Source: Cyclostephanos tholiformis (lineage: Eukaryota > Bacillariophyta > Thalassiosirophyceae > Thalassiosirales > Thalassiosiraceae). Taken from it: DNA of 12,378 nt. Each line of letters opens with the position of its first letter. Within the stretch, counting starts at the first letter, position 1. This document shows, piece after piece, positions 1 through 12,378 of this stretch. The notes beneath the pieces are model-generated. The model did no database searches. It saw only the letters and a program-made list of their open reading frames with translations, and was not told the DNA's origin. The stretch is taken from positions 1-12,378 of the forward strand of contig JALLPB010000876.1 of NCBI GenBank assembly GCA_036939975.1. The letters run 5' to 3'. A program made the translations under genes and the position numbers.

Positions 1-453
1 TTTTTTTGTCATGGAAGGTCTCGAACACATCACATCATAATAACATCACACATCACAACATCCAAAATCAACGATGACCACGGCACGGTACGGGGAAGCG
101 TTATGTTGTGTGTATTCGTTGACGTGAAAGTGGCGGGATAACACACATGGTTGGGGCCGATGTAATTTTTTATATTAGGTATATACAAACTCCTACGTAC
201 GTGGGTTTCGACGTCCGGGCCGTAGTAAAAAACTTCATGTTCGACGACCGAATCGAACGACGACCAACAGAAGGATGGATACCTACATCATCACCTACCA
301 TGGTATATTATCTAGCGAGAGAGAGATGACGAATGATGATTAGAATCGCAAGAGTAGAACAACGCTTGGGAGGTAGACTGGGGGTGTGTTAGGGTGCGGT
401 TCATTTCTCCTCATCGTCGAATAGTCAACATTTCCGTAATACATGCTACCATC
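1..453. other. Upstream region of the chitinase gene, no gene recognised
   Basis: No convincing coding region is seen. Positions 20-62 are rich in short CA/CAT-type repeats (variants of acatcaca). AT-rich TATA-like stretches occur near 167-188 and 302-310, roughly 270 and 145 bases before the chosen ATG at 454; either could belong to a promoter, but neither is diagnostic. An open frame from 147 to 329 has no recognisable composition and is not called. The frame of the first chitinase exon stays open upstream to 394, but that codon is GTG and no ATG precedes 454 in frame. Confidence 0.5.
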
Positions 454-3400
454 ATGAGGCATGACAGAACCGACGACGGCGATCCCACCCGATTCTCCAA
501 CCATGGACCACTACTATCGCGTATCGTCCTGGTCGTCGTAGTTTTCATTCCGGTCATCGTCGTCGTAAACATCGTCATCGTGATGACGACGACGACCGTG
601 ACATCCAGCCTCCCCCCGTCGTCGTCATCCTCGTCTTGGACGGGAATGTGGGGCGATATTGGGATTCCCACCCCCCCGGCATTGCGCGTGCGACGGGAAC
701 TCCAATCGTCGTCGTCTTCGTCGTCGACGTGGACGACGCACACGGGGGACGATGGCGTCGTCCTCCCCCCTGTCGATCTATCGGCATATCATACCGAGGT
801 GGAGGGGGGTGGGGGGGGAGAGTATGACGATGACGCGTCGTCGTCGTCGTCATCGTCGTCGTCGTCGTATGAGACATCGAACGAGGAGAGTGAGGCGCTG
901 CTCGAGAGGCTATCGAGAGCGATATCGGCGAGGGAATCGCTCGTCGTCGAACATCCGAGGTGGTCGTACGACGACGACGACGACGAGGAGGAGGACCACG
1001 TCATCGAGGGTAATTACGTAAACGACGATGCGGGGATGGTCATCGATGGGACCATGACACAATACAGTCACATATCGTCCCTGGGCAAAAAGCGTCGGAA
1101 CCTGGTGGGATCGTACGCCAGCTGGCAGTGGTACGATCGCGATTCGTTGGCGACGCCGACGAATATTCCGCTCGACAAGTACACGAGGGTGAATTACGCC
1201 TTCTTTCAGGCCGATAACTACGGATACGTCTACGGCACCGATAGCTGGGCCGATCCAAATATACTGTTCGGGCCGTACAGGTACGACGCGCCCGATGATT
1301 TACCGGAGGGGTGCAGGGGCGGATTGGGACGGGATGACGGATATGATGTGATGACCGGGAGGGGGGAGGAGGATGATGATATTGCCGCCACGACCAAGGA
1401 TGACTCGCGTGGAAGGCGGAGGACGAATAGGCGTCGGAGGAACGATATAAGGGGGGGGGGGAGGAGGAGGAGGAAAGCGCAGACGACGCTCGTCGTCGAG
1501 GACGATGACAATACGAACAACTCCAATGCGACGACGACGACGAATACGACGGCGAGGTGCGAATTTTTTGAGCAATGTCATCGCAACTTCCCGAACTCGA
1601 AATCTTGCAACGTACACAACTACAAGGATGGATTGATATATCGGAGTCACTCGATGGGTACGCAGGTATATCCGAGCATAGGGGGATGGACGTTGAGCTC
1701 GTCATTTCCCATTGTGGCAAGTTCTGATGCTAGGAGGAAGAGGTTTGCGGAGGAATGCGTCGGATTGATCGACGATTATGGTTTCGATGGTGAGTAAATT
1801 TGATATTGTTGCTTGTTTTGTTTCGTTTGCTTGTTTTGTTTGTTTGTTCTGTTTGTTCGTTCGTTTACTTGTTCATTTACTTGTTTGTTGTAGGATACGA
1901 CGTGGGGCACGATTGGGCTTGCCCATATGCATCATAATATTTATTGTGGGGGAGGGGGTTGCACCCGTCCCCCATCGCCGCGCCGCGAGACTGGGTATTT
2001 CCACCTCCACCCCCATCATATCTTTCGAACCCTTCGTCATCTTACTTTCGTCTGTGTTAACCCCACCCCCTCAAAGGAATCGACATCGACTGGGAGTATC
2101 CCGGCTACAAGGAACACGGCGGCACGGAGGCCGATCGCGATAACTTTAACAAATTGCTCCTCGAGGTACGAGAGGCTCTCAACGCCTATCAGGAGAAGAC
2201 CGGTAAATCGCCATTGGGTGGGGGCGCTTACGGACTAACGGCCGCGTTACCGTGCGGACCGGCGAATATCGATTTTCTAGACGTGTCGTTTATTGCCGAG
2301 GCATTGGACGAACTGAACCTAATGACTTTTGATTTACACAATGAAAGGGATCCGAAAACGGGTGCGAATTCTCCATTGTTCGATCAGGAGTGGGACGAGG
2401 AGCCCGGTTTAAGCGTGGACGGATGCGTCAAGAATTACAGGCTCGGGGGGGTGGGGGACTTTGCGAAGAAGATCAACATCGGGTGAGTTGTCGGCGACTT
2501 GCGCGTGTTTTTCTTTTATTTACATACATCGTATACTTCTCTTCGCTAATGAGAAGCATTCGTTGTTTCACCCTACGGTCTTTCGTTAATCATGAACATT
2601 CGCCAACGCCGCCGATCGAACTGCAGTGTCCCATTTTACGGCAAGACGTACCCCTTTGCCTCGGAGTTGAATGCAGCACATAGCAATATGACCGAGGAGG
2701 AACTCGGTGAGGGTATGTCCGATCAGCAGAACTGGCCCCAGGACCTCGGCACTCCTGTATTTTACAGCATTATCGATAAGCTAGCTAAAGGTGGGATGGT
2801 ATCGAAACGTCATGAACCCACCAAGACGCAATATGCTTACTTTAAGGATGGCTCTGGGTTAGGTGAGTGCATGTTGTCTTGAACGATGACGCGTGACTAC
2901 CGCCACCTGGTAACAGTAATCGAAATTACACATTCAATATTCTTCAGTTTCGTATGACGATCCTCAGTCTGTCTGTGACAAAGCGGACTATGTATCCAAG
3001 GAGTTCCTTGGGGGCCTCTTCATTTGGGAAGTCACAGGAGATTTGATGAAAAATTTGGTGAGATTCTCATTTTTCGCCTCATAACGACCTCGCTGTCATT
3101 TGTGACCGCGCTCACGCCCACCAAATCCCTGAATCGCAGGAGACGCCCTTGGTAGATTCAATTAATCGCAAACTGGAAGAGACCAACTTTGATTGTCGGC
3201 TGATGGCGTCCGCTGAGGATGGATCAATAGTTGATTTGCCTCCGCCTGCTCCTAAGGGAGAGGAGCAAATATTACGGCTGGAAAATGCGAGTGTAGTAAC
3301 ATCTATCATCGACCACTTGCAAAAGGCCGAGAATGGCGAGTTGGCTGGGGGCGGTAAAGGAACAATTACGAGGGCAGCGTTTGTGTACCGTGCTTGGGAT

Positions 3401-6400
3401 GGAAGCTTATTTCCATCGTATTTTTACAGGTTTGAGCACTTTTTGGATGCCTTAGAAAAGATGGCGACCGTGGGGGTGAATGGAGATTTATTTTACTTGG
3501 GATATGGTCAAAATGTTTCAAGTACAAACGGTACTCAGAATGCTACGGGGATAGAAGATGGTCAACTTAGGCGTCAGCTCCAGATGGAGGATGAAGATAA
3601 TGTCGCTCTTGATGCCACAGAGGTCTTACAGACTTCGTTGGTTTATGGACTTGTTAATGTCGCCGCATACCTAGCCCAAGCTATGACAGACTCCATCATC
3701 CACGATGCATGTGACGAGCTCAATGTAGATTACTTAGACGATGACAATAACGACGGACGTGGACTTGACGATGGCAAAGACGTTTTTCGATTCCCAATAA
3801 GTAATGCATGTGGCCAATACGGACGGTCTTACGAAGACGAAAGCTGCGATACGGTTGATTTAAAGTACGACTGCAAATCACAAATGGATGTAGAGCTTCT
3901 AGCAAATATGGAATCCAACGGAATTAGTCGAGGTCATTGGGACGGAGCTCCTGGGTCATTTTATTGTGGACCAAAGGAAGTGTACGGAAAGACTGGTTAG
4001 TTCGACTTGTTGATTGTTTGGTATTTTTTACCCAACCTGATTTTGATCCCCATTTATTTTATTTCGTTTCATTAGGATTCTGGGATGCAATTACTGGAAG
4101 GGAACCTGACGACGTGACCCCAACTCCGAATGATGGTGGCAGAACAGGTATGTATCTTCCTTGACCAATGTGCTGGTTGCGACGAAAATCGTCACCATAT
4201 CAAGTAAAATAGACATTAATTACGCACAATTTGATGCTCATGAAACCTGATCTTGTTCGCACAGACGTGCAAGGTTGTTGCTGGTGGGGTCGAGGCAGCT
4301 TGCAAATGGGCACCAAGGGTACTTGTATTTACGGAAAACTGAACTATCATTTGGGCAAGGCTAAAGCTCTGCGTGATGGAGAAGCAATGTTTGCTAACGT
4401 CGATTTTTGCAATGATCCAGGTCAAATCTGCTCGGGATTAGATTCTATACCTCTTCGGTGGATATCGGGAATGTATCATTGGATGGAGAATGTCCAAAAG
4501 TACGATCAAGGTAGATTTAACTACATGGATGAGCTTATCTCCTACGTCAACGGTGATCTTACATCAGAAGAATTCTTTCGTGGGGCAACAAATATTCATG
4601 TTCTGGGATGTCACAAGACCGATTGTTCCTCGTCCAAATCTCTCACGGATATGGACGCTCGTCTTCGCGCTTTTGAAAAGGTAATGTCCCTTTTTGGCCT
4701 CCAATTTGAATCTCACGCCAAACCCGAGCCTCCGTTCAAGGCGTATCCAGGCCAACAACTGCCGACCCCGGCCCCTACTGTGACCGTTCTCGAGGAAACT
4801 GAAAACACGCTATTATCACCCACAATCCCTCCTACTGTTATGAGGGAAACCGTCGTTATTCCATTCAACATATTCCTCACAGGTGTGCCCAATGCCACCA
4901 ACATGACCAATGATGAGCAGAAACTTTTTGAGTCAGTCATGCTTGACATGCTTGTTTCTCGTCTTGCGACAGTCGATATAACCGTTTTAGACGTGGTGAC
5001 GGATTCTCAAATCCCAAACCCTTTTTTAGCAAAATCAATCTTTGATTCTCAGGGTGAAAGCGGTGCCAGTGACAATGAAACAAAGCCCGTATTGCAAGTC
5101 GTAATGAACGTCACAATTAGCTACGGCCCTCCTCCCCCCGAAGGAATGCGGGACTGGTCCATTTACGTAAAATCGTGGATAGAATCGTTTGGAAACACGA
5201 TGGTAGAAATCTTCACCTCGCCAAAACACCCACAGCATCCTGAAACCAACTCAAAGTTTTGGGATGAGTTAAGCGATGTCACGGCGTCTAATGTCGAACC
5301 GCCAAACACAGACCCTACAATGTCGCCTACACCCGTTCCAGAGCCTGTCTGGGTTTATCCGGATAATTCCGGGAACAAAGGAATCATTGCCGGCGTAACC
5401 CTCTTTCTTTTGTTTCTTATCGCTGCATTTTGCGTGCACTTTCAAAGGAAGTTACGCGAATACAGACGACTTCAATCATCTCTGCAACAAAACAAGAAGT
5501 ATTTGGAGATAGTCGATGAAAATTCTTACCAACGCCGGGAGAAGAAAATACGACAAAGGTCATCTGGATCTCATCTAACACGGGATTCGACGTTCTTTCG
5601 TCCTGATTCGCGCAGACGGTTAGAGAGAGTGATAGAGGAAAGTTCATCGGATTCCTCCTCTAGCAGTGACAGTGAAAGTTACAGCGACAGTGACAGTGGT
5701 GAAAAGAAACGCCGATTTTCGGCTGTGAGAAAAGTTAGAGGTGTAAGCCAAGCACAAAGTGTCACTGCTTCAGCTGCAATGCGCTCACGTGGTTCGCTTG
5801 CGAGTGCTTCCTCTTACTCCAGAAAAAGCTCACATGATTCCGCTGCAAGCGCTTCTCTTGCTAAGCGCTCACGTGGATCGCCTGCAAACGCGTCCTCTGA
5901 CACCCATAGGAAATCACGTGACTCCGTCGCGAACGCTTCCGCTGAAACGTGCTCGCATGGTTCGCTTGCGAGCGTTTCCTCTTACGCCAAAAAAGGCTCA
6001 CGTGATTCCGTCGCAAACGCTTCTACTTATTCAAAAAGTCTGAACGGTAGCGTGTTCTCTAATTCAACGCATGGCGAGGGGGAAAGCTCCACGGAAAACA
6101 AGAAATTGAGTCAATTTGATGAGATTGTCGAACGTGTTCGGGTTAATGATCCAACACTAAATGAAATCATTCTTGATGGCAGGAGAATGGTTCAAAGACA
6201 TCACTATAAGAGTTTATGGAATGCCCTTGTGGATAACTCCGTTGTCACAAGACTTTCTCTCAGACGTTGCAATATCAACGATGAGGGTGCCAAATCCTTG
6301 TCACTGGCTTTGGTTCACAACACTTGTATTACACATGTTTGGTTAGGAGAAAATGTCATTACAGATGACGCCGTGGAATGTGAGAAAGACTCATTTTGCG

Positions 6401-7494
6401 CAGTAATTCATTTTCTTTTTAGTTCGCAGACACCTTTCTAACTGTTTTTCTTCACTTACATCATAGCTTTAATTGCAACATTGGAAAGCAACGAAACCAT
6501 CGTCAATTTAGAGCTGGCGGGAAATTCAGGTACTGATCCTGTCCTAATTGACGAGGTTAGATCGATACTGAAACCGCGAGAAAATGCTTACTTGGTTGAC
6601 ATCATGGACCGAGTATCGCAAAACGATCCATCACTGACAACGTTAAATTTCAGCAGAATGAATATTGGCTCGCGCGAAGATGTCCTGCCCATGCTTGATT
6701 CTCTTACTAATAGTATCTATATTCGAAAGATTGACCTTTCTTGGAACGAAATGGATGATGATTGTGTGTCGTACATCTCCCTGGCTTTGGAGGAAAACAC
6801 TAGTGTAACTGATCTCAACTTGGCGAATAATGTCATACATTCAGATGGAGCAGAATGTAAGTGCTCTGTGCTAGAATGACTGTTTTCTTTTGGCTTTCAA
6901 CTCCTCAATTACTCTTGTGCATCGTTTTTTCGTTGATCTCTAGACTTAATTGGCATCCTCGATTCGAATACAACGCTAGTAGACATCAATTTGGCTGGTA
7001 ACATGATTGACAGCAGTATTTTAGAGGAAATATATGCACTATTGAAAAAACGTCGCAGTTCTAAATCCATCAAAAAAAATGAATTACGTGACGGACAATC
7101 ACAAGCTAGCCAGTCAAGTGAAGATGAGTCAGGAGCCGAGTCGTCTGATGAGTCACCAAGTGATTTGGAATCAGCCAAGGAAGGTGCGGTGGCTTCAGCG
7201 GCCTCCCAATCATTGAACTCACTTTTATTGCCTGCTGATGCTAGCAGTGGATCTATCAGCCGCAAATCTGGATCGAGATCGGCTAGAAATTGGAGTGAAT
7301 CTATGAAATCAAAGTCTAAGACTTCAACGGCGTCCCAATCATTGAACTCACTATTATTGCCTGCCGATGCTAGCAGTGGATCTATCAGTCGCAAATCTGA
7401 ATCTAGATCGACTAGTGATAGGAGCGAATCTGCGAAATCAAGCTCTAAGCGTCACGGAGACCATGAGCGGAGAAAGGTGAGAAAAATCGTCTGA
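454..7494 (+). CDS. Receptor-like GH18-GH19 chitinase with transmembrane helix and LRR tail (9 exons)
   Basis: Exons: 454-1789, 2077-2482, 2627-2862, 2948-3057, 3140-3995, 4076-4147, 4265-6379, 6467-6856, 6944-7494. All eight introns are GT-AG and keep frame, giving about 2,023 residues. Order: hydrophobic anchor 24-44; Ser/Asp/Glu-rich stretch 51-205; GH18 domain 217-700 with SIGGW (408-412) and DGIDIDWE (445-452); GH19-like domain about 765-1150; unrecognised domain about 1200-1350; transmembrane helix 1378-1397; Ser-rich tail; two LRR modules 1620-1877; repeat tail to the TGA. Expected role: hydrolysis or binding of chitin outside the membrane, with a cytoplasmic tail able to recruit partners. 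If the N-terminal segment is cleaved the protein is type I; if not, both ends are cytoplasmic. I start at 454 because it is the first in-frame ATG and is followed by the hydrophobic segment. The exon chain is strong; signalling is inference. Confidence 0.8.
838..867 (+). repeat. TCG trinucleotide tract coding poly-Ser
   Basis: Nine TCG units and one TCA encode ten serines (residues 129-138). Related GTC/TCG/GAC runs are scattered through 530-990, including five GAC codons at 970-984 that encode five Asp. The stretch lies between the N-terminal anchor and the GH18 domain, where length variation would be tolerated. Confidence 0.9.
1320..1557 (+). repeat. Low-complexity insert inside the GH18 domain, with 11-G run
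   Basis: Residues 289-367 are a charged, Arg/Asp/Thr-rich tract lying between the GH18 blocks ending PEGC and starting CEFFEQC. The DNA includes a run of 11 G at 1451-1461 read as Gly codons, and later ACG repeats. The frame stays open and GH18 homology resumes afterwards, so it reads as coding. A spliced intron here was considered but I see no good GT-AG pair. Confidence 0.6.
1790..2076 (+). other. Intron 1 of the chitinase gene, T-rich with an internal cryptic acceptor
   Basis: The donor is gtgagt at 1790 and the acceptor ends at 2076, before a GA that completes the Gly codon of DGIDIDWE. The first 100 bases are variants of tttgttt/cgtt, an almost pure T/G tract. A second good-looking acceptor (ttgttgtag) ends at 1893. 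At 287 bases this is the longest intron of the gene; the other seven are 80-144 bases (2483-2626, 2863-2947, 3058-3139, 3996-4075, 4148-4264, 6380-6466, 6857-6943). Confidence 0.8.
3350..4700 (+). other. GH19-like chitinase domain (exons 5-7)
   Basis: Residues about 765-1150 continue directly from the GH18 end in the same exon. Recognisable blocks are VYGLVNVAAYLAQAMTDS (ending at S881), a Cys-rich SNACGQYGRSYEDESC block, GCCWWGRGSLQ (1009-1019), an FCNDPGQICS block, and RWISGMYHW followed by an NVQKYD segment. GRGxxQ and the Cys/Trp framework match GH19 chitinases; the block order fits an algal or oomycete-style GH19 rather than plant class I. By my alignment D880 sits where GH19 usually has its catalytic Glu, so activity is uncertain. 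The family call rests on motif recognition only. Confidence 0.7.
4850..5440 (+). other. Membrane-proximal extracellular domain and transmembrane helix
   Basis: After a Pro/Thr-rich linker, residues about 1200-1350 form a mixed alpha/beta-looking region with several N-glycosylation sequons (for example NATN and NVTI). A second Pro-rich stalk (PTMSPTPVPEP) leads to the helix GIIAGVTLFLLFLIAAFCV (from 1378), followed at once by basic residues (QRKLREYRR), the classic stop-transfer pattern. This puts both chitinase domains outside and the remainder inside. I do not recognise the extracellular domain. Confidence 0.75.
5776..6040 (+). repeat. 84-bp tandem repeats coding a Ser-rich cytoplasmic tail
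   Basis: The hexamer tcacgt, or one-base variants, recurs at 5785, 5830, 5869, 5914, 5953 and 5998, with alternating spacing of 45 and 39 bases. That makes three copies of an 84-bp (28-residue) higher-order unit, each of two half-units such as SRGSLASASSY and SRDSVANAS. Just upstream (near 5640-5700) is an acidic Ser-Asp stretch that looks like casein-kinase-2-type sites. The repeats lie in the cytoplasmic tail, between the transmembrane helix and the LRRs. Confidence 0.85.
6107..7053 (+). other. Two tandem LRR modules (exons 7-9)
   Basis: Module 1 starts QFDEIVERVRVNDPTLNEI and module 2 starts LVDIMDRVSQNDPSLTTL. Each has about four leucine-rich repeats (such as VTDLNLANNVI) and ends in a LELAGN or INLAGN repeat plus a helix (EVRSILKPR, EEIYALLKKR). 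The NDPSL-type cap and repeat length recall tropomodulin/RNI-like LRRs rather than plant receptor-kinase LRRs. Introns 7 and 8 cut both modules at the same place and phase. The position after the transmembrane helix predicts a cytoplasmic protein-binding surface. Confidence 0.8.
7192..7449 (+). repeat. 129-bp tandem duplication in the last exon
   Basis: Copies at 7192-7320 and 7321-7449 are in frame (43 residues each) and very similar in DNA. Both contain SQSLNSLLLPADASSGSIS. The core is nearly identical and the flanks differ mainly at Ser/Arg codons. The encoded tail has high Ser content and scattered Arg/Lys. Confidence 0.92.
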
Positions 7495-7748
7495 GCGTAC
7501 ATTGATGCAGTGTTGCAAAGAGACACAAGAATTAGCGCTTGAGGTGAAAATCGGCGATGTCGAGAGAAGGTGCATGTCGTAAACACACATGCGCACTTCT
7601 CTACTGGGAGGTTTCGACTCCTCAGCGGGGGTTTCATGAAGATGATTGCCCCCCCCCCCCTTTCTAGAGAATGGCATGTCTCACTGATAAGCCGTTGTCA
7701 ATGGCCGCCACTTAACAATATAGCTTCTTTTACAAACACACTATGGAG
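7495..7748. other. Tail-to-tail intergenic spacer
   Basis: This spacer of 254 bases lies between the stop of the chitinase gene and the stop of the minus-strand membrane protein, so it must hold both 3' ends. It contains a run of 12 C at 7649-7660. I see no clear polyadenylation signal, terminator hairpin or gene. Confidence 0.6.
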
Positions 7749-9410
7749 TTACATTCTCGACCCTCCAGGACGACGTGAGAGGAGAGCGCCAAACCTCAAT
7801 GGTGCAGCGGGCACCGTCTCTTCATTATATTCAACCAAATCCTCAGCTTCAACCAGATCAGAATGAGATGAATCCATCCGTGGCACTCTCCCTCGAATGA
7901 CGGAGTGAGACGAATAGGGTGGGAGCGTATCTTCGATGGAATTACTCCCATTCTCCAAATCTATTTCGTCTTCATCCCTCAGTGGCGTTTCTTCTCTCCC
8001 ATTCGGAATTTCTCCGAGTTCGTTCCACGCCACATAATCTATGCAGGGGACGTATATCTTCAAATATGTCGAGTACGACGGCTGAGCTTTTAACGATAAT
8101 AGCATCGCAAGCACTGATATGAACAGAGTACAATTTCCCCAATACCTCGTCCCGAGGAATGTCGTTAATCCCCACGACCAAAGCCAACCACTCCACAGTC
8201 CGCTGACGATGGACGTGATTGGATGGATCCCACGAGAGATTGCCATCAATATCAGTATCGAAAGGTAATGGCTGAATCTAGAGGAGGATAAAAAGTTCAA
8301 ACCGAACGGGAGCACCGGGGGGGGGGCGTACGGAAAATGAGATCCGTACACACCCAAAACAGCCGTCGACAGCGAGGCGATGGAACACATGGCCGCCCGT
8401 TGGGCGAGGAGTTGACGAGGCGTTGTACTATATCCATCAAAATCTACGATGCCGTATATTTTTCGAAGTATGCATCGACTTAGGCCCAATTCCAGAAGCA
8501 TCGACGTGAGATTTAGGGCAAGGAGGACGCGCAAGTACGAGTATCCACCATCCAACGACAGCAAGGGATGGCGACTGTCATTATCGACGGTGGTGCCGCC
8601 AGGAATGTGGTCCGCGTCGTTTATTATTTGCGCCGTCGTCCCAATAATTCCGGCCAATTCCGTCGCGAGGCTTGTTACATTATTCCCGATCACGCCCAAT
8701 ACGAGCCTGCCGTCGTGTATATCGTACAACTCCTCCAAAGCGCGACATTGCCATAGCAAATGCGACGAGTATGCCAACAACGGCAATCCAGACAAGCTCC
8801 TACCACCTGTCCGCATCGTTCGTAGTAATTCCATCGGAATGACCCTGCCGCATATCGGAATAATCCCCCCGCGCAAAGACGAGAAGCGACGATGATCGTC
8901 GCCCGCGCCCGTGGCGGCGGCGACGGCATCCCTCCCTCCAATATCATTGGAGGCATCCTTCTCCGCCGGGGGATGACTGACGATGGCGAGCGGCGCCCTG
9001 TAGAATTGTTTCATGATCACCAATTGATCGTGTCTGGCACACACGTCTCTACGCGTGCGTCTGGCATTCCACTGAAATAAGTAAACGACGTGTAGAAATA
9101 TTATGATAGATAGGGTGGTGGTATCGTGATGGCGACGATGATCGTCTATACGGTGGGAGGAGGAGTCCAGCGAAAAGTAATGCGGCCGAGAAGAAGAACG
9201 GTCGGAGACGGATGCGATGTTGACGTTTCGGTAGTAAAAGTAGGGTCGGACGACGTCATTATTCCAGGATCCGTGCTGATCAACCACCTTTGTGATCCTC
9301 GACTGTGTCGATTCTACAAGCCCCGCATCTCCACCCCCGTCATCCTCCTCCTTAGCAGACAGGCGACGCCGTCGGCGTCGTCGTCGTCGTCCTTCCCTCG
9401 GCATCATCAT
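7749..9410 (-). CDS. Multi-pass membrane protein, rhomboid-like, probably without protease activity
   Basis: A single exon of 553 residues, from ATG at 9410 to TAA at 7749. The N-terminus is MMMPREG followed by poly-Arg, then about 90 polar residues. Hydrophobic segments lie near 99-113, 206-222, 291-311, 337-354, 379-394, 397-418 and 424-441. Rhomboid-like features are YLFQWN after the first helix, FYRAPLAIVSH, LLWQCRALEELY (where active rhomboids have HLLxN then an E-Y/F-G segment), and a late HPxTSIVSGLWSGWLW block. I see no GxSG serine motif (nearest SLST, 347-349 region), the expected Asn is replaced, and the late His is displaced, so I infer a pseudoprotease. Residues about 149-190 look like a lineage-specific insert. 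The C-terminal 110 residues are acidic and polar. The family assignment is tentative; the gene itself is well supported by length and hydrophobic pattern. Confidence 0.6.
   Translation of the reverse strand: MMMPREGRRRRRRRRRLSAKEEDDGGGDAGLVESTQSRITKVVDQHGSWNNDVVRPYFYYRNVNIASVSDRSSSRPHYFSLDSSSHRIDDHRRHHDTTTLSIIIFLHVVYLFQWNARRTRRDVCARHDQLVIMKQFYRAPLAIVSHPPAEKDASNDIGGRDAVAAATGAGDDHRRFSSLRGGIIPICGRVIPMELLRTMRTGGRSLSGLPLLAYSSHLLWQCRALEELYDIHDGRLVLGVIGNNVTSLATELAGIIGTTAQIINDADHIPGGTTVDNDSRHPLLSLDGGYSYLRVLLALNLTSMLLELGLSRCILRKIYGIVDFDGYSTTPRQLLAQRAAMCSIASLSTAVLGVYGSHFPYAPPPVLPFGLNFLSSSRFSHYLSILILMAISRGIHPITSIVSGLWSGWLWSWGLTTFLGTRYWGNCTLFISVLAMLLSLKAQPSYSTYLKIYVPCIDYVAWNELGEIPNGREETPLRDEDEIDLENGSNSIEDTLPPYSSHSVIRGRVPRMDSSHSDLVEAEDLVEYNEETVPAAPLRFGALLSRRPGGSRM
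9377..9391. repeat. GTC trinucleotide tract coding poly-Arg at the membrane protein start
   Basis: Five GTC units on the plus strand read as Arg codons on the minus strand, inside a run of nine Arg at residues 8-16. The repeat type is the same as that in the first chitinase exon. Confidence 0.85.
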
Positions 9411-9581
9411 ATCCGGGCCTATCGTCCCGACGGGGCGATCGTCTCAGTCGAGGGTCGGTAAAAGCACGCTACGAGCAGCAAAAACTGAGAAACGCAAAAA
9501 CTGAGAATTGTTTGATTTTCTACGTAAGCTGCTACCTAAACTCCTCCCCCACCATGGCATCTGCTCACTACAATACCATTT
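9411..9581. promoter_or_regulatory. Upstream region of the rhomboid-like gene with a 14-bp direct repeat
   Basis: This short stretch between the minus-strand ATG and the candidate LTR must hold the gene's 5' UTR and proximal promoter, unless the transposon interrupted it. It carries two identical 14-bp copies (gcaaaaactgagaa) at 9478-9491 and 9494-9507, 68-97 bases from the ATG. No TATA element is clear. A regulatory role for the repeat is a guess. Confidence 0.35.
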
Positions 9582-9650
9582 TGTTGAGACACAGTCTCCT
9601 GGTACAGGTGAACCGGTCCCTCAGAGGCATAAGTACGCCCACTAAGAATG

Positions 9651-9658
9651 TGACGTGG
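9651..9658 (+). promoter_or_regulatory. TGACGTGG, bZIP-type ACGT motif in the candidate LTR
   Basis: TGACGT is the core of cAMP/bZIP response elements, which are described upstream of CO2-responsive diatom genes. Here it lies 69 bases into the candidate LTR, where retrotransposon promoters sit. An 8-base match can occur by chance. Confidence 0.25.
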
Positions 9659-9673
9659 AGAGACACCTTATTT

Positions 9674-9712
9674 CCACGTTGCCTCCCCACGTTGCCTCCC
9701 CACATTGCCTAC
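9674..9712 (+). repeat. Three tandem 13-bp repeats in the candidate LTR
   Basis: The unit ccacgttgcctcc is present twice exactly (9674-9686, 9687-9699), then once as ccacattgcctac (9700-9712). Short tandem repeats in the U3 part of an LTR often act as enhancer-like elements; that role is inferred here. Confidence 0.85.
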
Positions 9713-9863
9713 CTAGTAGAGGGCCATCCCTCACAATTTAATCAATATCTCGATTTCCTACCATATGTCAAATCAGCTATCGATTAAATAATCGCTATTG
9801 CCTCAACATATTGATTAAATTAGTGGGGCTTCCGCCCGCCGTCAAATGAAATTCGAAATAAAA

Positions 9864-10025
9864 ATGGAGCCTGTCTGTGCAGTGATCATCGCTGTCTCTG
9901 CCTACGTTGCCATTGTCGTCATCACACTTGGAATGGGCGTTCGCACACAGAACGCATGGCTCCCCCTCTCTGTCATCATCACCATCCTCATCATCGGCGT
10001 ATCGTTCGTTTCATCCACAAAATAA
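9864..10025 (+). CDS. Small two-helix membrane peptide (53 aa) just before gag
   Basis: An ATG at 9864 opens 53 codons ending in TAA at 10023-10025, one base before the ATG of the gag frame at 10027. The peptide has two hydrophobic segments (residues 4-23, starting VCAVIIAVSAYVAIV, and about 33-49, SVIITILIIGVSFV) separated by a polar turn GMGVRTQNAW. The short N- and C-termini carry few charges. I do not recognise it. The frame is unbroken although gag beside it is frameshifted. It could be an accessory membrane peptide of the element, or a chance open frame in a C/T-rich leader, where GTC and ATC codons give hydrophobic residues automatically. Confidence 0.4.
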   Translation: MEPVCAVIIAVSAYVAIVVITLGMGVRTQNAWLPLSVIITILIIGVSFVSSTK

Positions 10026-10026
10026 A

Positions 10027-11340
10027 ATGGGGACCATCAAGGAGGAGGAACAACAAGCCGTGAAGGTCCCGGCGGGGGGTGATGCAGGCCAACAAAATTG
10101 ACGTGGGGGATGTGGCTACGGTCGCCACCGCCGGAACAACAGCATGGGCGGTGGGGGGCCACAAAATACCTCCACACAATTCCCAACATGCAACAAAGAT
10201 TTACCCGACAATGCCGTCTTCGACAAAATGGGCCAGGTAGATGCCACAAACTTTCAGCATTCCCTCAAGGCCATTGCAAACTATCTCAATACAACATTTA
10301 GTGCGGAGGTGTCGACTGCAATCCTCAAGATGCAAGACATCACAATTAACATTGAAGAAGAGCCCACCCTACAAACGGACCCGTCCACCAAGAAAAAGTT
10401 CCTGCTAACATCATGGGAAGAATACACATGAAAAAAAACTACACCGAACAGTCCAACAAACTGAAGGTGTACAATGGCAGTATGCTGAAGGCATACATCC
10501 ACATCTATGAGCAATGCTCTACAAACCTCAAGAATGATCTTGAGGCATCCTCTGCCTTTCCCACTGTCGAAGCCAACAAGGATCCGATTGGGCTCCTCAA
10601 GTTAATACAGGGACTCTGTTGTTCCTACGACTCTAAAACCCAGAGCATCATGGTGACGGTTGTGTCGCAGAAGAAACTGTTCACCTTTTTCCAGCGTGAT
10701 GGGATGGACAACAGCACTTTGTCACGCACGCCAAAACCATCAAGAGGAATGGAGGCACTGGTGCCATTGGCATCACCCCAACCTTTGTTGTCCAGAAACT
10801 ACATGACATGCAGCTGGCTGGTTCCTGCACCAATGCCAATGCTCCCACCAAGTCTGAAATGGCGGCAGCACACAAGTTTGTCTGTGACAAGTTCCTGGCC
10901 GCCCTGATGCCCAGTGGTGCTAATCGCGACCACTATGGTGCCCTCCGCAATGAACTCGCAAACCAGTATGGATTCGGCAATGACATCTATCCCAAGTCTA
11001 TCGACCAATGTCTTACGATGATGAATCGTCGGGTTGACTCTGTCCCCGCCTGCCCACCCCACGGGCAACAGCTCCATCGTGAACCTAGGCAAGAACAGGA
11101 GGAAGAGGCCCTAGGATTGCCCAAGACTCTGACAAGAAGATGCCAACCAAGCCGCAACCCTACTCTACCAAGAGCACTTCTTCCACCAGTTCCGGCTTGC
11201 GCAGCAGCAAAATAACTACCGTGGTGTGCAAGAATTGCAGTCAAAAAGGACACCTCTCCACCGTATGCCCTTGGAAGAACCCGCCCGAGCAAATCCATGC
11301 CATGGCCGCCGAACCTGACAATGCCGTCGGTTTACTTTGA
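10027..11340 (+). pseudogene. Frameshifted copia-type gag with CCHC zinc knuckle
   Basis: From ATG 10027 the frame reads 24 codons to a TGA at 10099. It then continues in the same frame (knowledge-based Gag match from about 10190: DATNFQHSLKAIANYLNTTF) to a TGA at 10429 beside eight A. Homology continues in the next frame (NYTEQSNKLKVYNGSMLKAY, GLLKLIQGLCCSYDS) to about 10700. It shifts again (HFVTHAKTIKRNGGTGAIG, GNDIYPKSIDQCLTMM) to about 11060, then again to a knuckle C-x2-C-x4-H-x4-C (CKNCSQKGHLSTVC, 11227-11268). Gag would coat element RNA; this copy cannot make one protein. At least one in-frame stop and three frame changes are seen directly. Confidence 0.8.
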
Positions 11341-12274
11341 CTCCATGAGCATCGCCAATGTCAGCTCTCTTTACCATCTGGGGCAGAAGTTCAAAGTCAC
11401 CTACAACAGTACGGACCGCTGTGGCGTCTTCAAGGTCTTCACCAAAGCTGGTGTGTTCGAATTTGCTCCCACTACCAAAGGTCTCCATGCCATCAACATT
11501 CAAGACAATCCTGATGCTGCCTACATCCTCGTCAACAATGTCAACCTCTCCTTTGCCTCTCCCATCCAAACTGTCTGTAAAAATTACGAAGGTAACACCA
11601 AGAAACACTTAACAACGATTGAACATTTCCCACAACATACTGCATCCAAACTTGGTTCCCTCCTTCATTGCATCATCAATGTCTACACGTGTGCAAGTTT
11701 CACGGTCCAAACAATTCTCGTGGACAATGAATTTGAAAAGGTCAAGGACCACATCCACCAAGCCACATTAAACACTACTGCTGCATCAGAACATGTTGGC
11801 GACATCAAACACCACATCTGGGTCATCAAAGAATGCTGCAGAGGCATCATTTGCACCCTCCCGTATGCACACTTCCCTCAGATTATGCTCGTACACCTCC
11901 TCCATCATGTCATCATGTGGCTGAATAACTTCCCTGTCAAGAATGGTGTCTCCAACCATTTCAGCCCCCTTGAGATTGTCCTTTGCCACAAGCTTGATTT
12001 TAAGCACCATTGCCGTGCACCTTTTGGTGCATATTGCAAGGTCCACAAAGATAACTCCCCCACGAACAGCATAAAGTCTTGTGGCATACCATCAATATGC
12101 CTCGGCCCCACTGGCAACATTCAAGGGACCTACATCTTCCTCAATCTTGCTACTGGTCTGGTCATCAGGCAACAATGTTTCAACAAACTTCCTGCCCCTG
12201 ATTCCATCATAGTCATAGGCCATGGCTTGTTGGCGGGAAACATCCTCGCTAAAGGTCGCGATTTGCTAGATTAG
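11297..12274 (+). pseudogene. Copia-type pol remnant: integrase region, internally deleted
   Basis: This is one open frame of 325 codons, read from 11297 though homology starts near 11333 (DSMSIANVSSLYHLGQKFKV, the strand before GAG-pre-integrase), ending at TAG 12272-12274. It runs to the integrase core end: FTVQTILVDNEFEKV (with a DNE that matches the second catalytic Asp), an EHVGDIKHHIWVIKE block where the third catalytic Glu appears replaced by Lys, then LHHVIMWLNNFPVKNG and HCRAPFGAYC. The protease Asp motif, the integrase zinc finger and the first catalytic Asp are not visible. From family knowledge they should lie before 11333 and near 11630-11690, so I infer two deletions. Reverse transcriptase is not in the window. 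An open frame in a dead element suggests a fairly young copy or deletions that happened to keep frame. Confidence 0.75.
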
Positions 12275-12327
12275 CCAATTGCCAATGTGAGTCAGAGAGC
12301 ACCAGCACGCCCTCTAAATATTCAGAT

Positions 12328-12348
12328 CTGCTTCAACGAAAGAAGCAG
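12328..12348. other. Perfect 7-bp hairpin near the window end
   Basis: ctgcttc and gaagcag flank a 7-base loop (aacgaaa). It lies 54 bases past the pol stop. No function is assigned. The remaining bases 12275-12378 show no recognisable reverse-transcriptase or host coding sequence. Confidence 0.5.
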
Positions 12349-12378
12349 CTATAAGATCCGAACATGTGGTAAAGACAA

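Follow-up and report, generated by a model that had tools for sequence, protein, structure and literature searches.

Several described proteins share parts of the layout reported here. In plants, GH18 receptor kinases join a chitinase-family ectodomain to a cytosolic module, and 91 such sequences are reported, with CHRK1 as an example (PMC5485988). In diatoms, GH18-GH19 fusions have been published as TpChi12 and seven TwChi proteins (PMC7874618) and as TwChi10/22 (PMC12028343). LRR_6, a family of leucine-rich repeats (LRRs), is listed among the auxiliary domains of 38 TwChi proteins of Thalassiosira weissflogii, in a paper whose main text uses "LRR" once and "receptor" and "leucine" not at all (PMC12028343). 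The gene described here occupies positions 454-7494 of a 12,378-nucleotide stretch of Cyclostephanos tholiformis DNA (assembly GCA_036939975.1, contig JALLPB010000876.1, positions 1 to 12,378 of the forward strand; hereafter the window). Like the Thalassiosira fusions, its product would combine GH18 and GH19 in one centric-diatom protein, and like the T. weissflogii LRR_6-bearing chitinase, so far merely listed in print, it carries LRR_6. The CHRK1 type resembles it in pairing a chitinase-family ectodomain with a cytosolic module, but has a kinase inside where the window protein has LRRs, and a GH19-like part goes unmentioned for that type in the PMC5485988 passage. We hold, with moderate confidence, that the gene encodes a receptor-like chitin tether or sensor of centric diatoms with an LRR scaffold inside, and not a normal chitinase.

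Nine exons give one protein of 2,023 amino acids; all eight introns are GT-AG and in frame, with no internal stops. The domain order is GH18, GH19-related domain, conserved juxtamembrane domain, transmembrane helix, Ser-rich linker and ribonuclease-inhibitor-type LRRs. A Pfam scan of the whole chain placed only GH18 and LRR_6 above cut-off. The assembly that contains the window contig (C854) has 25 Mb in 1,566 contigs. The parts of the protein, in window coordinates, are listed below.

511..582, plus strand: N-terminal hydrophobic stretch, residues 20-43 (19-residue hydropathy up to 3.47)
1102..3042, plus strand: GH18 domain, residues 217-691, exons 1-4 (PF00704 match, PDB chitinases, residue table)
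2094-2096, plus strand: GH18 catalytic Glu452 (residue table)
2328-2330, plus strand: Phe530, Tyr in most GH18 (residue table)
3392..4704, plus strand: GH19-related domain at residues 781-1152, encoded by exons 5-7 (score 63.6 and 97.7% in hhalign, controls far lower; residue tables)
3689-3691, plus strand: general-acid position, Asp880 (residue tables)
3716-3718, plus strand: general-base position, Glu889 (residue tables)
near residues 1014-1024, plus strand: GRG hairpin of the GH19-related domain (residue tables)
4846..5298, plus strand: conserved juxtamembrane domain, residues 1200-1350 (conservation in 10 sequences)
5380..5442, plus strand: predicted transmembrane helix, residues 1378-1398 (hydropathy; an Arg/Lys-rich stretch follows)
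5461..6108, plus strand: Ser-rich (27% Ser) low-complexity linker (composition)
6124..7092, plus strand: ribonuclease-inhibitor-type LRR region, residues about 1626-1890, exons 7-9 (LRR_6, PDB matches, motif count)

The exons of the splicing model are as follows.

454..1789, plus strand: exon 1, with start codon, hydrophobic stretch, low-complexity extension and GH18 start
2077..2482, plus strand: exon 2 (splicing model)
2627..2862, plus strand: exon 3 (splicing model)
2948..3057, plus strand: exon 4 (splicing model)
3140..3995, plus strand: exon 5, with the residues after the GH18 match, a linker and the first part of the GH19-like domain
4076..4147, plus strand: exon 6 (splicing model)
4265..6379, plus strand: exon 7, unbroken, running from the remainder of the GH19-like domain through the juxtamembrane domain, helix and Ser-rich linker into the first LRRs
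6467..6856, plus strand: exon 8 (splicing model)
6944..7494, plus strand: exon 9, with a Ser-rich (32%) C-terminal tail and the stop codon

The nine-exon layout as one chain is real. Nine relatives were compared at the splice joints, and joints 1-8 are bridged in frame by 4, 5, 6, 7, 7, 8, 5 and 6 of them, respectively; those that do not bridge a joint end short or have no sequence there. All eight joints are bridged by CCRYP_017568-RB (P0004, 1,752 aa), whose prefix we take to denote Cyclotella cryptica. P0009 has an insert precisely at joint 7, the pattern expected of a retained intron, and P0001-P0003 stop 9-39 residues past that joint. An earlier note, made from the window sequence, had described one chain with GH18, GH19, a helix and an LRR tail of 626 residues, with its domain joins inside uninterrupted exons at 3140-3995 and 4265-6379. 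The chain and its order stand, with 625 residues C-terminal to the helix, and both exon limits are exact in the splicing model. The joins from the GH19-like part to the helix and the LRRs do lie within exon 7 (2,115 bases). The GH18/GH19 join does not fall cleanly in one exon, because the GH18 Pfam match ends at residue 691 in exon 4 and exon 5 starts at residue 697; it is secured instead by the seven relatives that run through the exon 4/5 joint.

The GH18 motifs seen in that note were confirmed by a hidden Markov model (HMM) search, in which PF00704 (Glyco_hydro_18) matches residues 217-691 with E 1.7e-62 (212.4 bits vs a cut-off of 29.6). Chitinases in PDB match the same part (best E 1.3e-54), in alignments that extend slightly past the Pfam end. 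Among other proteins, from a homologue search limited to 7,998 candidates, 24 GH18 columns are at least 90% conserved, and the clade of the window protein (see below) keeps 21 of them, Glu452 included. The three lost columns all lie within seven residues and are changed in all six readable clade members: Tyr to Phe at 530, Gly to Asn or Ser at 534, and Trp to Lys, Arg or Gln at 536. In the other proteins this MxYDxxGxW motif has Tyr in 109/112, Gly in 110/113 and Trp in 102/110. The Tyr of the YD motif is called crucial in catalysis (PMC8802321). The clade GH18 is best described as a predicted site whose acid/base is retained and whose cleavage-site motif is altered. Tyr-to-Phe was also considered as a mark unique to the clade and was rejected, as Phe also occurs at two (L001 and L004) of the five further GH18 loci in the genome whose motif can be read; the other three carry Tyr, and an alignment-based count gives Phe in 2/3.

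The GH19 motifs claimed for the middle domain found no support in a plain HMM search and were tied to GH19 by profile-profile comparison. At E ≤ 1, PF00182 (Glyco_hydro_19) matches neither the window protein nor any of 47 relatives, no GH19-type NCBIfam family was found in the six relatives scanned, and PDB sequence searches with the middle domain returned nothing meaningful. The earlier note had named the lack of a GH19 HMM hit as an outcome that would refute it, and a plain HMM search does give that outcome. The family profile, built on 47 rows of which 45 were used, was set against a GH19 profile of eight regions: five come from database proteins, and three are frames at four GH19 loci of the genome. 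The global comparison reached 97.7% with a score of 63.6 over 246 columns; the best of 100 column shuffles scored 11.45, the reversed profile 6.05 and GH18 1.69. The local comparison reached 92.2% with a score of 55.3 over 148 columns of the later half only, against 12.75 for the reversed profile, at most 24.2 for column shuffles and 22.9 for GH18. The global alignment sets the E-x8-E of the family onto HES...RE of GH19, with the same spacing as the catalytic pair Glu61/Glu70 of BcChi-A (PMC7844276). Because the profile scores stand far above the controls and E-x8-E falls on HES...RE, the middle domain is read as a distant GH19 branch missed by the family models used. In one source, 5 of 87 relatives carry the name "predicted chitinase".

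The GH19 catalytic set comprises a general acid, a general base, the water-positioning Ser120 and the putative accessory Gln118 (PMC2976769). The base Glu, nine residues past the acid position, is present in 104/104 family rows with a letter there and corresponds to Glu889 in the window. The general-acid Glu is absent in the window, where the site reads Asp880, Glu and Gln with Gly at 120; the hairpin is two residues longer, so the 120 column is unsure. In the LRR clade the acid position is Glu in 13/35 and Asp in 22/35 and the base Glu is kept in 35/35, while Gln118 is found in 2/18 and Ser/Thr120 in 0/18. An intact-site group of 31 rows has acid Glu in 28/29, base Glu in 29/29, Gln in 30/30 and Ser/Thr in 29/30. 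For these counts, 18 of the 37 LRR-clade names were assigned by similarity and not by tree; the other groups come from the 78-row tree. On these residue tables, most of the catalytic set is lost from the GH19-like site of the clade, which is what we regard as new here. Acid Glu to Asp was rejected as clade-defining, since Glu is still present in 13/35 and the first tree requires seven or more D/E changes; loss of Ser/Thr120 is the more consistent mark.

In both trees, rows with LRRs group with close fragments in a single clade of 19 rows, with SH-aLRT 100 in the 78-row tree and 100/100 and 100% of 200 bootstraps in the 66-row tree. The latter, more careful tree omits 12 of the 78 rows (long branches, triple-domain proteins and one near-copy); in it the long stem of the clade meets the long branch P0163, which affects the sister and not the unity of the clade. 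LRR sequence is visible in 8/19 clade rows (the window and P0001-P0007), P0001-P0003 showing the first LRRs only, and the other 11 are pieces too short or ending before the LRRs. A search with the juxtamembrane region (protein length limits 1,113-3,540 aa) returned nine proteins, all of which have GH19-like sequence, a transmembrane helix and LRR sequence; P0006, P0008 and P0009 begin too late for GH18 to show. The homologue searches were word-based and length-limited. Clade counts are not independent because the rows include environmental fragments and near-copies, P0001-P0003 being near-identical and P0120 99% identical to the window. Only C. cryptica (P0004) and Thalassiosira exigua (P0119) carry species names; both belong to the Thalassiosirales, the chitin-spinning order. 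These results support a receptor-like layout kept in a monophyletic gene set, the same domain order that the earlier note suggested seeking in other diatoms.

At the N-terminus, a hydropathy window spans residues 17-53 and is predicted to be a signal peptide or signal anchor; P0003 also has such a stretch. Across 10 sequences of the juxtamembrane region, 43 of 156 columns are invariant, and the region has one match in the whole genome. It is probably PF27087, which is listed for relatives and presumably lies in the same place there. A PDB search with its profile gave nothing meaningful (best E 0.076), and a SEA-like fold is our guess from the strand/helix pattern. The second hydropathy window, residues 1375-1399, marks a helix found in all nine long relatives. 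In 9/9 relatives, the 20 residues after the helix hold 5-8 Lys/Arg and the 20 before it 0-1. Under the positive-inside rule, by which basic residues flank the cytosolic side of a membrane helix, this basic stretch suggests that the LRR tail is cytosolic. The absence of a kinase in this receptor layout, also asserted in the earlier note, holds in so far as no kinase exceeds the Pfam cut-off in the chain, the juxtamembrane piece giving a chance-level 12.7 bits vs a cut-off of 23.1.

LRRs in the tail, likewise noted before, are detected by LRR_6 with E 1.1e-10 on the whole chain and E 1e-15 on residues 1614-1882 (56.9 bits vs a cut-off of 23.4), and an NDP motif stands at two LRR block starts. 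After the helix, the window protein has 7 LRR-like motifs; six relatives have 15-19 each. PDB sequence matches include NLRP14, DRC5 and LRRC34 and, more weakly, tropomodulin/leiomodin. Ribonuclease-inhibitor-type LRR proteins (NLRP, DRC5, LRRC34, ribonuclease inhibitor, tropomodulin/leiomodin) belong to the same LRR sequence class as the tail; unlike in the window protein, a chitinase part is not indicated by their listed names. The inner part is probably an LRR scaffold. A tropomodulin-like actin-binding tail was considered and dropped, the tropomodulin matches being weaker than those to NLRP and flagellar LRR proteins. In the Ser-rich C-terminal tail, a 23-residue stretch occurs twice (window 7201-7269 and 7330-7398) and is identical in protein.

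These features are consistent with the following mechanism. The outer half would consist of two chitinase folds in tandem, the GH19-like one mostly stripped of catalytic groups and the GH18 one with an altered motif. Both grooves would mainly hold a chitin chain, with slow or no cleavage; the juxtamembrane module, the single membrane helix and the Ser-rich linker would relay attachment inward, where the cytosolic LRR scaffold would recruit partners. Two grooves for the same polymer, with altered cutting sites and the rest well kept, suggest holding over cutting. Chitin binding, topology, partners and a signal or tether role are what we infer for this protein; attachment may act as a signal or as a mechanical tether. 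We would expect the natural ligand to be either the beta-chitin fibre that the cell itself makes or wall chitin. Chitin_synth_2 matches lie on three contigs of the genome (best 580 and 517 bits), and the Thalassiosirales are described as the one order known to date in which beta-chitin fibrils are secreted through fultoportulae, although further chitin-making diatom groups are proposed; chitin fibres can account for 31-38% of the cell mass of Thalassiosira species (PMC10134812). For these reasons, chitin made by the cell itself is the most probable ligand. A bolder version, possible rather than probable, is that two enzymes turned grips, together with a lineage-specific juxtamembrane module and the cytosolic LRRs, form a kinase-free receptor or mechanical tether with which Thalassiosirales monitor or anchor the beta-chitin fibres spun through their fultoportulae. 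The gene is a conserved, testable candidate for a link between extracellular chitin and an intracellular protein scaffold, and an apparent case of two unrelated chitinase folds turned into binding modules within one protein.

Some observations weigh against a tether or sensor. The DxxDxDxE motif of the window GH18 is kept as DGIDIDWE, with Glu452. Phe at two other GH18 loci of the genome indicates that Tyr-to-Phe may be tolerated. The acid/base pair is aligned to GH19 in the global comparison only, and in P0004 and 12 further clade rows the GH19-like domain still has the acid Glu. The LRRs might do no more than localise the protein, and Chitin_synth_2 matches are no proof of chitin, because 4 of 14 control genomes (bacteria) match too. 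An active membrane-anchored chitinase would accommodate several of these points: GH18 would cut, the GH19-like domain would bind, and the LRR tail would only position the enzyme while it trims or remodels nascent surface chitin. The intact GH18 acid/base motif, with 21/24 conserved columns kept, favours such an enzyme, as does the T. pseudonana study in which chitin synthases and chitinases in general are described as cooperating in fibre building (PMC3478156). We nevertheless consider it unlikely, as Tyr, Gly and Trp of MxYDxxGxW are gone in all readable clade members and are kept by most other proteins. The suggestion in the earlier note that the protein could process chitin is likewise weakened, given the degenerate GH19-like site and the altered GH18 site.

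Compared with a tether at the cell surface, we regard as distinctly improbable a protein of an internal membrane (Golgi or silica deposition vesicle) that ties lumenal chitin or wall matrix to cytosolic machinery during wall building. In its favour, chitin is a scaffold in diatom walls, and for the chitinases of T. pseudonana the predictions include signal anchors, helices and a range of locations (PMC7874618). An immune-type receptor for foreign chitin, from fungal parasites or grazers, seems slightly more doubtful still. Although the layout is receptor-like and NLRP proteins are among the LRR matches, NLRP-type LRR similarity is common to many non-immune proteins, the single juxtamembrane match in the genome gives no expanded set, and both species-named clade members presumably fall in the chitin-spinning Thalassiosirales; plant GH18 receptor kinases are the known precedent (PMC5485988). 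Finally, a fusion of two or three adjacent genes by the splicing model, which no C. tholiformis transcript underlies, can practically be dismissed, and the earlier note was right to set aside a mis-splice or merged gene: relatives cross all eight joints in frame, exon 7 alone runs from the GH19-like part through the juxtamembrane domain and the helix to the first LRRs, and CCRYP_017568-RB has an AED of 0.03 and a MAKER quality string that we take to mean splice sites with transcript support.

Both GH18-GH19 fusions and the occurrence of LRR_6 among the chitinases of a diatom have been published before. In open-licence full texts, no description was found of the combined layout, its conservation or the degenerate sites. 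The earlier note's statement that no receptor of this layout is described holds for the combination and is qualified by CHRK1, the published fusions and the listed LRR_6. The LRR_6-bearing TwChi may be an ortholog of the window protein, and so may TpChi2 (2,070 aa), for which a signal anchor and a transmembrane helix are predicted. P0014, P0015, P0020 and P0022, which combine GH18 with Pfam-detected GH19, differ from the window protein in having the HES form of GH19, in which the window-domain family profile gave no match above 60 bits, and no LRR family was found in them.

Other GH18 and GH19 sequences were also recorded. The 31-row group (P0152, P0159, P0162, P0028, P0052, P0033 and kin) is GH19-related and retains the whole catalytic set; Pfam finds no GH19 among the members scanned. 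The group occurs in diatoms; P0033 and P0035 are taken to be from Tetraselmis, on our reading of the label Tetstr1. This group, which includes P0053, named "uncharacterized protein YjdB" by one source, may be an overlooked chitinase family. In a second GH19-like group of 16 (P0142-P0146, P0151, P0153, P0165, P0167 and kin), 7/16 have the chitin-binding CBM_14. Its acid position is Asp in 12/16, Ser in 2/16 and Glu in 2/16, and position 120 is Arg/Lys in 15/15, Ser/Thr120 always being lost. P0012 and P0013 (~1,220 aa) carry three GH19-like domains each, with acid positions D/L/R and G/L/R. At G000:C303:5229-7706, minus strand (L004, L025), GH18 matches are followed on the same strand by a Pfam-positive GH19, with MTFD for MTYD in GH18; this is perhaps a GH18-GH19 fusion of the published type. 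The GH18 match at G000:C602:2520-3524 (L001) has MSFD in place of MxYD. One alignment shows Asp for its catalytic Glu, which a pattern scan neither confirmed nor excluded, and L001 is a possible pseudo-chitinase.

In the rest of the window, a 564-residue open frame at 7749-9443, minus strand, has hydrophobic stretches by eye and no Pfam match above cut-off (best 13.3 bits). Overlapping frames at 10100-12274, plus strand, resemble by eye a decayed retrotransposon. Five pieces were scanned there, and only 11089-11337 gave matches, weak and below cut-off, to a zinc knuckle (E 0.005) and eIF3g (E 0.001).

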